A stretch of 64,000 nt of DNA from Acidimicrobiia bacterium (GTDB taxonomy: Bacteria; Actinomycetota; Acidimicrobiia; Acidimicrobiales; Poriferisodalaceae), in contig JAJDZE010000165.1 in NCBI GenBank assembly GCA_022824805.1, positions 1-64,000 on the forward strand, in the 5' to 3' direction. Position 1 is the stretch's first letter; each line of letters begins with the position of its first letter. Positions 4,028 through 9,808 of the stretch are shown here, one piece after another. The notes beneath the pieces were generated by a model, which saw only the letters and a program-made list of their open reading frames with translations, was not told the DNA's origin and ran no database searches. The position numbers were made by a program, and so were the translations under genes.

Positions 4028-4073
4028 ATTCGCATCAGAAAGCAAACTGCCCAGTTGACGGTATCGTCATGCT

Positions 4074-5063
4074 GTGGGAGTCGCAGGACCTGACGGGGCC
4101 GAGGAACTGCTGATCGAGACCAGGTGGCAAGGCAACCCGGCTTGTCCTCGCTGTGGCGATGGGCGAGCTTCGTCTCAGAAGGACCGGCCAGGGGCAGATT
4201 GGACCGTTTGGCGCTGTCGCACATGCCGCACCCGGTTCAGGGTGACGACGGGAACAATGCTGCATTCCACGAAGTTGACCCCCTCCGACTGGTTGGCCGT
4301 GGCACAGGGGCAGGACACGGCAGCGGCGACCATCGCAGAACTCATCGGTGTCTCGTTGGTCACCGCACGCAAGATCGCTGCGCTCATGGCGCCAGTGTGC
4401 GATGGCTCACCATCGGAGCGGCTGCGGCACATGATGAGCCCAAGGCACCAATGTCAGCCGGCACCCGACCCATGGCAGATCGAACCCCTTCCGGCAACGC
4501 TGCGCATCGAAGGCAGCCCGCTCAGGTCGCTGAGCAACGGCGTGAAGGCCGTTCTGAATGCACTGAGGGCACGGCCGTTCGGAGCGACGCCAGTCAAGCT
4601 CGCCGAGCTGTCCGGCGTGTCGTATTCGCAGACTCTGCGGTGTCTCGCCAGTCTCGAACGACGCGGCTGGGCCGAACCCGCACAGACAGCCATCCATCAC
4701 GGATACGAACTGCGCCGCGCGACAGTGTGGTCGCTGTCATGGTCGGATGGTTGCATGCATGCCCTCTCATGCCTTCGCGACCGGCCGACACGGCGGATCG
4801 AGAACGTGGAAGACGGCGTGCCGCTCCGCTTTTGGCGGGGCTTCTGGTCTGGTGCTGCCGCTGATTCGCTGCGGATATCCGAGCACGGCCTGCATATCGC
4901 AGAAACGCTGATCGGCGGACATGATGTCTGCGCGAGGGCGTGGGCGCTTGCAACACTGCCGACACGCATACTGCTCGAGTGCCGCTCATTGCGGGGATTC
5001 GATTCTGGTTGGCGAGCAGATCTGCTCGATCGTGAGATCGCCCGGCGAGCGGCTGCAGCATGA
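4074..5063 (+). CDS. putative AbiEi-like antitoxin/regulator with IS1595-type transposase zinc ribbon
   Basis: N-terminus CPRCGDGRASSQKDRPGADWTVWRCRTCRTRFRVTTGTMLHSTKLTPSDWL resembles the IS1595-family zinc ribbon (CxxC...CxxC...F.vttGT..h.tkl....Wl). Middle VLNALRARPFGATPVKLAELSGVSYSQTLRCLASLERRGWAE is winged-helix-like. Overlaps the AbiEii-like gene by 4 nt. Confidence 0.65.
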   Translation: MGVAGPDGAEELLIETRWQGNPACPRCGDGRASSQKDRPGADWTVWRCRTCRTRFRVTTGTMLHSTKLTPSDWLAVAQGQDTAAATIAELIGVSLVTARKIAALMAPVCDGSPSERLRHMMSPRHQCQPAPDPWQIEPLPATLRIEGSPLRSLSNGVKAVLNALRARPFGATPVKLAELSGVSYSQTLRCLASLERRGWAEPAQTAIHHGYELRRATVWSLSWSDGCMHALSCLRDRPTRRIENVEDGVPLRFWRGFWSGAAADSLRISEHGLHIAETLIGGHDVCARAWALATLPTRILLECRSLRGFDSGWRADLLDREIARRAAAA

Positions 5064-5752
5064 GCGAGATCGACGCGTGGGCCGATGTCTTGCCTGAGCG
5101 GCTGCGACGGGTGTGGCCTTACGTCGCGGACTGCGCCGGCCGTATCGGCGGCGTGTTGATGGGAGGTACGGCGGTCGCCATCCACCTGCGGCACAGAGTC
5201 TCTGAGGATCTCGACGTGGTCACGCTGCAGCAGTTCTCCGGAAGAGCACTGCAAGAGCGATTGCGACGAGCAGCCGCGCATGTGGAGACCGATGAAGTGT
5301 CCGACAACATGTTCCACGGCTACGTCGACGGCGTCCGGGTGGACATCTTCCGGGCACTGCCGTCCGATGATGTGCAGCCGTCCAATATGCGATGGGTCGC
5401 TCCGAGCACCACGATCGGAGACATGAAGATCGGCGCCATCGCAGATCTCATGGCCGCCAAGCTTGACGTGATCAGATTCCGTCCCAAGCTGCGCGACTAC
5501 CTGGACCTCGCCGCGATGGACCAGTCAGGCGCCTGCAGCCTCGAAGCTGGATTGGGCTACTACTGCCGACGGTTCGGGCACAGTTCCCCGCCGCGGGCGC
5601 TTGAACAGATCACTCACCTGCTCGACGGCCCCGGCACGCTGCCGAGCGACCCCGACTACGAAGACCGCCGTGACGATGCGCTGCGCCACCTGCAGATGCG
5701 GGTACCAGCACTCCGCAACCGAATCGCCGAAATGCGCGACGCCGTCCCGTAG
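5060..5752 (+). CDS. nucleotidyltransferase, AbiEii/AbiGii toxin family-like
   Basis: GGVLMGGTAVAIHLRHRVSEDLDVVT (GG(T/S)...R.SeDlD nucleotidyltransferase motif) and KIGAIADLMAAKLDVIRFRPKLRDYLDLAAM, typical of AbiEii-like proteins. Confidence 0.8.
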   Translation: MSEIDAWADVLPERLRRVWPYVADCAGRIGGVLMGGTAVAIHLRHRVSEDLDVVTLQQFSGRALQERLRRAAAHVETDEVSDNMFHGYVDGVRVDIFRALPSDDVQPSNMRWVAPSTTIGDMKIGAIADLMAAKLDVIRFRPKLRDYLDLAAMDQSGACSLEAGLGYYCRRFGHSSPPRALEQITHLLDGPGTLPSDPDYEDRRDDALRHLQMRVPALRNRIAEMRDAVP

Positions 5753-5967: not shown

Positions 5968-7680
5968 CTAGCGGCAGCCGCCCTCATCCTTGTCCCAGGC
6001 GCAGTTCGTCGACTTGCCGTTGACGTCCACGACGTCGCCGACCTGGGTCCAGGTCTGCTCGTTCGCGTTGAACTGGCTGAAGTCTGAACCCTCAACGAAG
6101 TACGCGTCAGCGTTGCCGTTGAACTGGGTGATGATGCCGTCGAGGATCATCGGGTGGTAGATGTCGATCGACCGCACCGCCAGGATGAAGTTCGTCCTGG
6201 TCAGGCCGCCCGGCAGGTCTGCAGCAACACGCAGCGCCTCGCCGTAGGGGTAGCCGTAGGTGTAGCCGATGGCGTACAGCGACACAGCCGGATCCAGGCC
6301 TGCGGCCTCCAGGTTGGAGTTCGCGAAGGCGATGAACGGCTCATCGATGAACTTCGGGTCGGTGGAGTCCTTCGACCCGCCGCCGATGATCCACCAGTCG
6401 TGGGCGAAGTCGCCCGCCGGCTTCATGTAGGCCTCGATGCCCTTGCACACCGACGGCGTGAACAGCGCGCCGCCCTTGGCGTTGATGTCGTCGTACAGGC
6501 CGCTCTGGCCGGCTTCCTGAATGGCCAGCAAGCACGGGTTGCCCGCCGTCATCGAGATGAACACATCAGGCTCGAAGGCCAGAATGGTGGTCATCTCGTT
6601 GGTCAGCGTGGGCGCCGCGGGGTCGTGACGCACTGGCAGGTACTCGCTCACCACATCGGAGTTGGCGTGTGCCCACTCTTCGAAGCCGAGCTCGTAGGCC
6701 AGACCGAAGTCGTTGTCCATCACCAGGCCGGCAACCTTCACAGGCAGCAGATCAGCCAGGTTCTCCCTGATCCAAGCGCCCCACAGGATCGACTCGGTCG
6801 AGTACGACATCTGCATGATGCTGGTCCACGGGTGGTTCACCGGGTCGCCCCAGGCGGGGTGGCCGGTCATCACGAACGGATGCGGGATGCACTCCTCGTT
6901 GATCTTGTCGTACACCGCGAGGGTGTTCGGCGAGCCCAAGGTCAGGATCGAGAACACGTTCTCCGCCTCGATCAGCTCGTCCACGAACTCGATCGTCTGA
7001 GCGGCGACGTAGGCGTCGTCCTTGATGATCAGCGTCAGGTCACGCGGCGAACCGCCGACCATGATCGGGTCGTTGTCGTTGATCCAGTTGAAGTAGTTCT
7101 CCCAGCCGTAGGCAATGTTGCCGTATGCGGCAAGGTTGCCCGACTGAGCCGTGGTGTGACCGATGCGCACCTCCGAGTCGGTGATGCCCGTCGTGTCCGA
7201 CCAGTCGTCGGGGCACGCACTGATGTCGATCTCGAAGCCGGCAGGGCCACGCAGGATGCCGTCGTCGCCGACGCCGTACTCGCCCGACTCGATCTTCTCG
7301 GTCAGCTCCGCGACGGACTTGGCGCGACGAGCAGCGGCCTCTTCGAAGATGCCGTCGAGGGTGGAGCGATCGAACATCATCTCCTCCTCTTCCATCATCT
7401 CCTCATCGGCGTCGTCATCGTCGTCCTCGCCCGCGACGGCGGCTTCGATGTCTTCCTCAGCAGCGGCACCGCCGAGAGCACCAGTGGCGCCCTCGTCTTC
7501 TTCCTCTGCCATCTCCTCTTCCTCGGCCATCTCCTCGTCTTCACTCGGCGCGGCCGTGGTTTCGGTCTCTGTCTCGCCAGCGTCAGCGTCTGCGTCGTCA
7601 TCGCCGCCGCCGCATGCAGCGGCCACGAGCGAGAACGCGAAGAGCAGAGCCAGCAAGCGCCACATTCGACGCTTCGTCAT
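5968..7680 (-). CDS. branched-chain amino-acid type ABC transporter substrate-binding lipoprotein (paralogue 1)
   Basis: MTKRRMWRLLALLFAFSLVAAACGGG lipoprotein signal, acidic linker, Peripla_BP_6-like core (VRIGHTTAQSGNLAAYGNIAYGWENYFNWIND). In an operon-like cluster with LivHMGF homologues. Confidence 0.85.
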   Translation of the reverse strand: MTKRRMWRLLALLFAFSLVAAACGGGDDDADADAGETETETTAAPSEDEEMAEEEEMAEEEDEGATGALGGAAAEEDIEAAVAGEDDDDDADEEMMEEEEMMFDRSTLDGIFEEAAARRAKSVAELTEKIESGEYGVGDDGILRGPAGFEIDISACPDDWSDTTGITDSEVRIGHTTAQSGNLAAYGNIAYGWENYFNWINDNDPIMVGGSPRDLTLIIKDDAYVAAQTIEFVDELIEAENVFSILTLGSPNTLAVYDKINEECIPHPFVMTGHPAWGDPVNHPWTSIMQMSYSTESILWGAWIRENLADLLPVKVAGLVMDNDFGLAYELGFEEWAHANSDVVSEYLPVRHDPAAPTLTNEMTTILAFEPDVFISMTAGNPCLLAIQEAGQSGLYDDINAKGGALFTPSVCKGIEAYMKPAGDFAHDWWIIGGGSKDSTDPKFIDEPFIAFANSNLEAAGLDPAVSLYAIGYTYGYPYGEALRVAADLPGGLTRTNFILAVRSIDIYHPMILDGIITQFNGNADAYFVEGSDFSQFNANEQTWTQVGDVVDVNGKSTNCAWDKDEGGCR

Positions 7681-7861
7681 GTTGTGTCTCCCCCCATTGG
7701 GTTGCAATAGCACGAACCGGCAGCGGAATCGCACAGATGCCCCAACCGGTTCATCGAGACACTAGTTCGCGTCCCGGGACTGGTCACCGGGCGGGTTATG
7801 TCAATTCTGCAACGATTTCGATTCTGCACCCGGGCCGCGACTGCGCCTCACCGGGCGCGCA

Positions 7862-7968: not shown

Positions 7969-9678
7969 CTAGCGGCAGCCTCCGTTGTCCTTGTCCCAGG
8001 CGCAGTTCGTGGACAGCCCGTTGACGTCGACGATCTCGCCGATGATGTTCCACGTCTGCTCGTTGGCGTCGAACTGGCTGAAGTCGGAACCCTCGATGAA
8101 GTAGCCGTCGGCTGCACCGTTGAGCTGGGCATTGATGCCATCGAGGTGCAGCGGGCTGTAGATGTCGATCGACCGCACAGCCAGGATGAAGTTGGTGCGG
8201 TTCAGGCCGCCCGGCAGGTCAGCAGCAACACGCAGCGCCTCGCCGAACGGATACCCGAACGTGTAGCCGATGCCGTACAGCGACACAGCCGGGTCGAGAC
8301 CCGCAGCCTCCAGGTTGTCGTTGACGAAGGCGATGAACGGCTCGTCGACATGCTTGGGATCGGTGGTGTCCTTGGAGCCGCCGCCGACAATCCACCAGTC
8401 ATGGGCGAAGTCGCCCGCCGGGGCCATGTACGCCTCGATGCCCTTGCACACCGACGGTGCGAACAGGGCGCCGCCCTTGGCATTGATGTCGTCGTACAGA
8501 CCGCTCTGGCCGGCCTCCTGAATCGCCAGCAAGCACGGATTGCCCGCCGTCATCGAGATGAACACGTCCGGCTCGAACGCCGCAACCGTGGTCATCTCAT
8601 TGGTCAGCGTGGGCGCCGCGGGGTCGTGACGCACCGGCAGGTACTCGCTCACCACATCGGAGTTGGCGTGTGCCCACTCCTCGAAACCGAGCTCGTAGGC
8701 CAGACCGAAGTCGTTGTCCATCACCAGGCCGGCAACCTTCACCGGCAGCAGGTCAGCCAGGTTCTCCTTGATCCAGGCGCCCCACAGGATCGACTCAGTC
8801 GAGTACGACATCTGCATGCCGGTGGTCCACGGGTGGTTCACCGGGTCGCCCCAGGCGGGGTGGCCGGTCATCACGAACGGCTGCGGGATGCACTCCTCGT
8901 TCAGCTTGTCGTACACCGCGAGGGTGTTCGGCGAGCCCAGCGTGAGAATCGAGAACACGTTCTCCGCCTCGATCAGCTCGTCCACGAACTCGATCGTCTG
9001 AGCGGCGACGTAGGCGTCGTCCTTGATGATCAGCGTCAGATCACGCGGAGCACCGCCGACCATGATCGGGTCGTTGTCGTTGATCCAGTCGAAGTAGTTC
9101 TCCCAGCCGTACGCGATGTTGCCGTACGCAGCCAGGTTGCCTGACTGGGCCGTGGTATGGCCGATGCGCACCTGGCTGTCGGTGATGCCTGTGGTGTTCG
9201 ACCAGTCGGTCGGGCACGCACTGATGTCGATCTCGAAGCCGGCCGGGCCGCGCAGGATGCCGTCGTCACCGACGCCGTACTCACCCGACTCGATCTTCTC
9301 GGTCAACTCGGCAACGGTCTTGGCGCGGCGAGCAGCGGCCTCTTCGAAGATGCCTTCGAGGGTGGAGCGATCAAACATCATCTCCTCCTCTTCCATCATC
9401 TCGTCGTCTGACATCTCGTCGTCGGTCTCGCCCGCGACAGCGGCTTCGATGTCTTCCTCAGCAGCGGCGCCGCCGAGAGCACCGGTGGCACCCTCGTCGT
9501 CGTCTTCCTCTGCCATCTCCTCGTCCATCTCCTCGTCCTCGCTGGGCGCGGCGGTGGTCTCGGTTTCTGTCTCGCCAGCGTCTGCATCCGCGTCGTCATC
9601 GCCGCCGCCGCACGCAGCAGCGGCAAGCGAGAACGCGAACAACAACGCCAGCAAACGCCACAGTCGACGTTTGGTCAT
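7969..9678 (-). CDS. branched-chain amino-acid type ABC transporter substrate-binding lipoprotein (paralogue 2)
   Basis: MTKRRLWRLLALLFAFSLAAAACGGG; near-identical along its length to the 5968-7680 product. Confidence 0.85.
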   Translation of the reverse strand: MTKRRLWRLLALLFAFSLAAAACGGGDDDADADAGETETETTAAPSEDEEMDEEMAEEDDDEGATGALGGAAAEEDIEAAVAGETDDEMSDDEMMEEEEMMFDRSTLEGIFEEAAARRAKTVAELTEKIESGEYGVGDDGILRGPAGFEIDISACPTDWSNTTGITDSQVRIGHTTAQSGNLAAYGNIAYGWENYFDWINDNDPIMVGGAPRDLTLIIKDDAYVAAQTIEFVDELIEAENVFSILTLGSPNTLAVYDKLNEECIPQPFVMTGHPAWGDPVNHPWTTGMQMSYSTESILWGAWIKENLADLLPVKVAGLVMDNDFGLAYELGFEEWAHANSDVVSEYLPVRHDPAAPTLTNEMTTVAAFEPDVFISMTAGNPCLLAIQEAGQSGLYDDINAKGGALFAPSVCKGIEAYMAPAGDFAHDWWIVGGGSKDTTDPKHVDEPFIAFVNDNLEAAGLDPAVSLYGIGYTFGYPFGEALRVAADLPGGLNRTNFILAVRSIDIYSPLHLDGINAQLNGAADGYFIEGSDFSQFDANEQTWNIIGEIVDVNGLSTNCAWDKDNGGCR

Positions 9679-9808
9679 GGTGTTCCTCCCATGTGGGTGA
9701 ATGTGGTCATGCCGACCCCCGGAAGACCCGAAGGCAGCATCGCCAAGCAAAGCTATGTCGCACGCTTTCGGCGATGCCCTGAGGGCGTATGTCAATCGAG
9801 CGACAATT

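Follow-up and report, generated by a model that had tools for sequence, protein, structure and literature searches.

Organization of the two-gene locus

The locus lies in the window, the whole stretch of 64,000 nucleotides that was analysed, and comprises two genes in ATGA overlap, recovered at the positions reported in an earlier note made from the sequence alone (Table 1). Gene 1 encodes a predicted antitoxin/repressor with an N-terminal zinc ribbon, and gene 2 encodes a nucleotidyltransferase that is the predicted toxin; each occurs in one copy in the genome, as represented by an assembly of 211 contigs. Close relatives of the locus come from metagenome-assembled Acidimicrobiia. In support of the GTG start assigned to gene 1, relatives have a TAnnnT −10-like hexamer at a comparable short spacing; lying immediately ahead of the start codon, this hexamer points to a leaderless transcript. 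No Rfam family matched the locus. Just downstream are tandem, very similar substrate-binding protein genes (5968–7734 and 7969–9795), the first belonging to Peripla_BP_6, followed by apparent branched-chain amino-acid-type permease genes.

Table 1. Features of the locus, with positions in the window
Feature	Position	Strand	Remarks
Antitoxin/repressor gene (gene 1)	4074..5063	+	329 aa; GTG start; ATGA overlap with toxin gene
AbiEii/DUF1814 nucleotidyltransferase gene (gene 2; predicted toxin)	5060..5752	+	230 aa; ATG start; PF08843
Promoter-overlapping conserved box, candidate operator	4029..4052	+	TTCGCATcaGAAAGcAAACTGCCC; same box in most subgroup orthologues
Candidate −10 hexamer TATCGT, putative leaderless-type promoter	4062..4067	+	TAnnnT similarly placed in relatives
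IS1595-type zinc ribbon, residues ~8–53 (C24/C27/C48/C51)	4095..4232	+	PF12760 above cut-off
HTH-like segment, residues ~68–109, collinear with transposase HTH	4275..4400	+	Model helices; transposase alignment
IclR/MarR-like winged helix, residues ~151–235	4524..4778	+	PF09339 above cut-off; structure search
C-terminal helical domain, residues 245–329, DUF6922-like, presumed toxin-neutralising	4806..5060	+	Profile links

Upstream of gene 1, a box of about 24 nt, TTCGCATNNGAARGNAAA, recurs exactly or nearly so 45–51 nt ahead of the start in most members of the subgroup, within flanks that have diverged; the start assignments of two members (L055 and L057) are uncertain. The core of the box is a palindrome in L056 and L058, while in the window promoter, where a simple inverted-repeat search reported no inverted repeat, it forms an imperfect palindrome. 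The core pattern occurs once each in four of the 11 genus genomes, always before this antitoxin gene; 30 other genomes lacked it, and the reversed-pattern control also gave zero. More distant ribbon antitoxins lack the box and have other upstream sequences instead, and such subgroup-specific sequences would fit a co-evolving operator.

Domains of the predicted toxin and antitoxin

Gene 2 matches PF08843 (AbiEii) in Pfam at 39.7 bits, against a cut-off of 22.5, and carries the motifs G35 G36, R46, D50-L-D52, K134...R141 and R145 D146 YL D149. These motifs (hGGx13DhD with R46, K134–R141 and RDYLD), together with S48, are conserved with few exceptions in 33 toxins. Motifs I–IV of AbiEii have been defined and are essential (PMC3985639); the spacing in motif I is x13 in gene 2 versus the x15 given in that work. 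The AlphaFold model of gene 2 (pLDDT 96) was compared with the PDB using Foldseek, yielding matches to H. pylori JHP933 (1.2e-5) and M. tuberculosis MenT1 (1.1e-4), and a toxin profile search also found AbiGII. The earlier assignment of the second gene as AbiEii-like is therefore borne out by the Pfam score, the retained motifs I–IV and the MenT/JHP933 fold of the predicted structure.

S48 is located two residues ahead of the first Asp of the DxD, as are MenT1 T39 and MenT3 S78, both of which become phosphorylated through the action of the antitoxin (PMC11375011). Gene 2 shares its predicted fold, its active site and the Ser/Thr before the DxD with the toxins of MenAT1, MenAT3 and MenAT4 of M. 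tuberculosis, for which three independent families of MenA antitoxin have been described (PMC10435456, PMC11375011). Gene 1, in contrast, carries a zinc ribbon, and the word zinc is absent from the text of PMC11375011. Five toxins (L010, L011, L012, L017 and L064) bear an extra C-terminal tail with a CGxWMPRAR...C...H-type pattern that is absent from the window's toxin and is possibly metal-binding.

Turning to the antitoxin, residues 9–53 match PF12760 (Zn_ribbon_IS1595; 28.0 bits, cut-off 25.4) and residues 159–201 match HTH_IclR (PF09339; 29.8 bits, cut-off 22), and the predicted model places helices at residues 70–78, 84–91 and 95–108 in the HTH segment. The four ribbon cysteines C24, C27, C48 and C51 are invariant in an alignment of ten homologues, and PF12760 also scored above its cut-off in the homologues scanned, except L069, which fell just below. 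Most hits of a structure search with the whole antitoxin model were MarR-type winged helices, the best with an E value of 3e-3, and nothing was reported for the ribbon or the C-terminal domain. No DDE family was matched in gene 1 by the Pfam scan; the ribbon is followed instead by the winged helix and the C-terminal domain. The CxxC/CxxC ribbon of IS1595 type, the HTH-like and winged-helix-like regions and the missing DDE catalytic domain thus agree with what had been read from the sequence beforehand.

The same cannot be said of the identification of gene 1 as an AbiEi antitoxin. No AbiEi model from Pfam, NCBIfam or PADLOC matches gene 1 at E ≤ 1, and NCBIfam provided nothing useful; one distant homologue has an AbiEi_4 match below threshold (E 0.064). 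The C-terminal domain belongs with DUF6922 by way of intermediate profiles. The window protein itself gave no direct Pfam match to PF21956 (DUF6922); L096, L097 and L099, all above the PF21956 cut-off and all adjoining AbiEii homologues, give matches of 1e-10, 8e-5 and 4e-18, respectively, to the C-terminal profile, and L073 and L075 match it strongly with weak PF21956 matches at the same place. The pair nevertheless resembles AbiE (AbiEi–AbiEii) of the Streptococcus agalactiae type (PMC3985639) in that the antitoxin gene comes first and overlaps or adjoins a DUF1814 nucleotidyltransferase with motifs I–IV. The AbiE antitoxin likewise combines a winged helix with a C-terminal domain and is likely autoregulatory, as gene 1 may be too. 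Unlike AbiE, gene 1 lacks an AbiEi match, ends in a DUF6922-like domain and has the extra N-terminal IS1595 zinc ribbon and HTH.

The C-terminal domain occurs in several contexts. It stands alone in proteins of about 90–120 aa (L082, L083 and L086), follows a MerR/Xis-like HTH and winged helix in L072, L073, L075, L080 and L104, and follows a ribbon-helix-helix (RHH)-like segment and winged helix in L089 and L091—the MerR/Xis-like and RHH-like names reflecting our own reading of the sequences and sub-threshold matches. Two ribbon-less relatives, L065 and L066, have the winged helix and C-terminal domain beside a toxin. The constant partner of the toxin is the C-terminal domain, while the front end varies (ribbon, RHH-like, MerR/Xis-like HTH or none), so the C-terminal domain is probably the neutralising part of the antitoxin; in AbiEi, the C-terminal domain has been shown to neutralise (PMC3985639). 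DUF6922 (PF21956) proteins beside AbiEii-like genes in other Actinobacteriota have a homologous C-terminal domain, by intermediate profiles, and the same toxin partner; unlike gene 1, they either begin with a MerR/Xis-like HTH and winged helix or are without a DNA-binding domain, and they lack the ribbon. The proteins of L091 (G003:C22, 694–1443) and L092 (G007:C23), each with an RHH-like segment, a winged helix and a DUF6922-like domain, have no toxin seen adjacent and could be solitary antitoxins; L092 reaches the contig end, and the G002 relative L089 does have an adjoining toxin.

Conservation of the pairing and probable origin of the ribbon

A class-wide search of 395 Acidimicrobiia genomes found the same two-gene arrangement in many species belonging to several families of the class; the fusion is thus not an accident. 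Genus relatives of gene 1 show 63–72% identity over the full length and diverged paralogues 31–35%; all of them retain the winged helix and the C-terminal domain as well as the ribbon, with an AbiEii gene next. The earlier note had proposed looking for the same fusion beside AbiEii-like genes, and in the Acidimicrobiia sample an AbiEii toxin is directly downstream in 23 of 24 ribbon-antitoxin loci, which include a few near-copies from closely related genomes and are not all independent; in most cases the genes overlap or abut. The corresponding count for IS1595 transposase loci is 0 of 15. In the sole exception among the antitoxins, L069, the toxin has been lost along with the winged helix and one ribbon cysteine. 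Outside the class, no full-length ribbon antitoxin turned up in 397 genomes sampled from the phylum. Searches of plasmids and IMG/VR found no relatives of gene 1; for the toxin, plasmids held no relative and phages one weak match (28% identity). In some species a frameshift or stop splits the toxin or the antitoxin, as in the split toxins of L061 and L062 and the frameshifted L067; these point to decaying modules.

Compared with 15 IS1595 transposases from the same class, the ribbon profile matched with 99.8% probability, and the alignment of antitoxin to transposase continues collinearly from the ribbon through the HTH; the HTH segment taken alone gave a weak match to the transposase HTH (22% probability in the profile comparison). 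Gene 1 has the zinc ribbon in common with IS1595-family transposases (PF12760), as well as the HTH behind it, though the likeness there is weaker. Whereas the transposases carry a DDE domain, gene 1 has a winged helix and an antitoxin domain instead, in an operon with a toxin.

In the ribbon tree, 19 antitoxins grouped together (98/93), with L068 and L070 between them and the transposases, and a single branch (95/97) had all antitoxins to one side. Ribbon systems clustered in the toxin tree with the ribbon-less L066 among them, which suggests one gain of the ribbon and a later loss. The placement of L068 and L070 between the other antitoxins and the transposases would also fit two ribbon captures instead of one. 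The ribbons are homologous, and we infer that the direction of transfer was from an IS1595-family transposase to the antitoxin within Acidimicrobiia. The proposal that a transposase-derived DNA-binding module serves as the antitoxin N-terminus, made in the earlier note, accordingly stands in part: the ribbon is of IS1595 type, the HTH probably is as well, and the pairing with an AbiEii-type toxin is conserved. It has to be amended in that the ribbon is a module added before an existing winged-helix and DUF6922-like antitoxin, and hence is not its sole DNA-binding part.

Proposed function and alternative readings

We consider it likely that the locus is a chromosomal toxin–antitoxin module of the AbiEii/MenT type, with a modular antitoxin that both neutralises and represses and a ribbon captured from a transposase. 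By analogy with MenT and AbiEii, the toxin, a nucleotidyltransferase of pol-beta fold, would probably stop growth by attaching nucleotides to tRNA or a different target. The DUF6922-like C-terminal domain of the antitoxin would neutralise the toxin by complex formation and/or by inducing autophosphorylation of S48, the equivalent of MenT1 T39, and the module may be of type IV or type II. The ribbon and HTH, together with the winged helix, could bind the promoter-overlapping box and thereby repress the leaderless operon, and the ribbon, once captured, would have been kept by selection.

The kind of toxin is already known; the transposase-ribbon antitoxin arrangement, conserved across one class of Actinobacteria, is absent from the papers searched. 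Within the open-access PMC literature covered, we found no paper joining PF12760 with antitoxins or AbiEi with a zinc ribbon, and none naming the DUF6922 family. The arrangement would represent exaptation of a transposase DNA-binding module into a bacterial antitoxin/repressor. DUF6922-type antitoxins, in which one toxin-facing domain appears to stay constant as N-terminal modules are swapped, form a ready-made set in which neutralisation could be told apart from autoregulation in AbiEii/MenT systems, whose diversity of antitoxins still calls for explanation, and give DUF6922 a testable function.

The most probable alternative concerns the ribbon, which might face the toxin or tRNA, or sense zinc or redox state, and in this way set the stability of the antitoxin while the winged helix alone binds the operator. 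On its own, the winged helix already makes a full DNA-binding domain, and it stands without a ribbon beside the toxin in L065 and L066, and a diverged antitoxin subgroup has lost the HTH after the ribbon with its four cysteines kept. Other antitoxins of the family, however, appear to place DNA-binding modules (RHH-like or MerR/Xis-like HTH) at this position, and the N-terminal ribbon/HTH of IS1595-family transposases probably recognises transposon ends; we regard a stability element as unlikely.

Some species of the genus have the module between genes for an acyl-CoA dehydrogenase and a substrate-binding protein. It is absent from the same site in G003 and G007, and a different gene occupies the site in G010, G005 and, through a match to L142, G004. 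Presence at the site in some species and absence in others show that the module has been gained and lost within the genus. Such patchiness at one chromosomal site is typical of toxin–antitoxin modules and, with all motifs needed for AbiEii toxicity kept, argues against a regulatory operon in which the nucleotidyltransferase would act on one particular target, either a housekeeping RNA or a protein, and would not be a toxin. That reading, to which the chromosomal setting beside metabolic and transport genes, the lack of plasmid matches and the single weak toxin match in phages lend some weight, seems to us quite improbable. The proposed toxin–antitoxin module is also favoured by selection: omega was below 1 for every domain in every computable comparison, and all domains are thus under purifying selection, with the ribbon/HTH least constrained by omega. 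Several points count against the module as proposed: in close pairs the ribbon changes more rapidly than the remaining domains, the HTH taken alone is weakly linked to that of the transposases and is lost in a diverged subgroup, and the box is an imperfect repeat in the window and is missing from more distant ribbon antitoxins.

Chance fusion of a decaying transposase to some unrelated regulator, without toxin–antitoxin function, would account for a transposase domain (PF12760) and for the broken relatives (L067, L061/L062 and the orphan L069), but this already disfavoured explanation is very improbable given that 23 of 24 loci conserve the operon order and overlap, and given the invariant cysteines and catalytic residues maintained under purifying selection in several families of the class. 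Least credible of all is that the ribbon still recognises IS1595 ends, so that the antitoxin senses active elements and its titration off the promoter or toxin, by many IS ends or by a related element on entry into the cell, triggers the toxin; if true, it would be an anti-transposon or anti-mobile-element sentinel. The surroundings of six transposases showed no clear terminal repeats with which the promoter box could be compared.

One further observation concerns recombination within the gene pair. The antitoxins of L007 (G009) and L008 (G008) are nearly identical (dS about 0.03), while their toxins have diverged (dS 0.32). Between L007 and the window, the toxin dS is 0.32 and the antitoxin dS about 0.8–1.0. 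These contrasts in dS point to mosaic recombination within the antitoxin–toxin pair.
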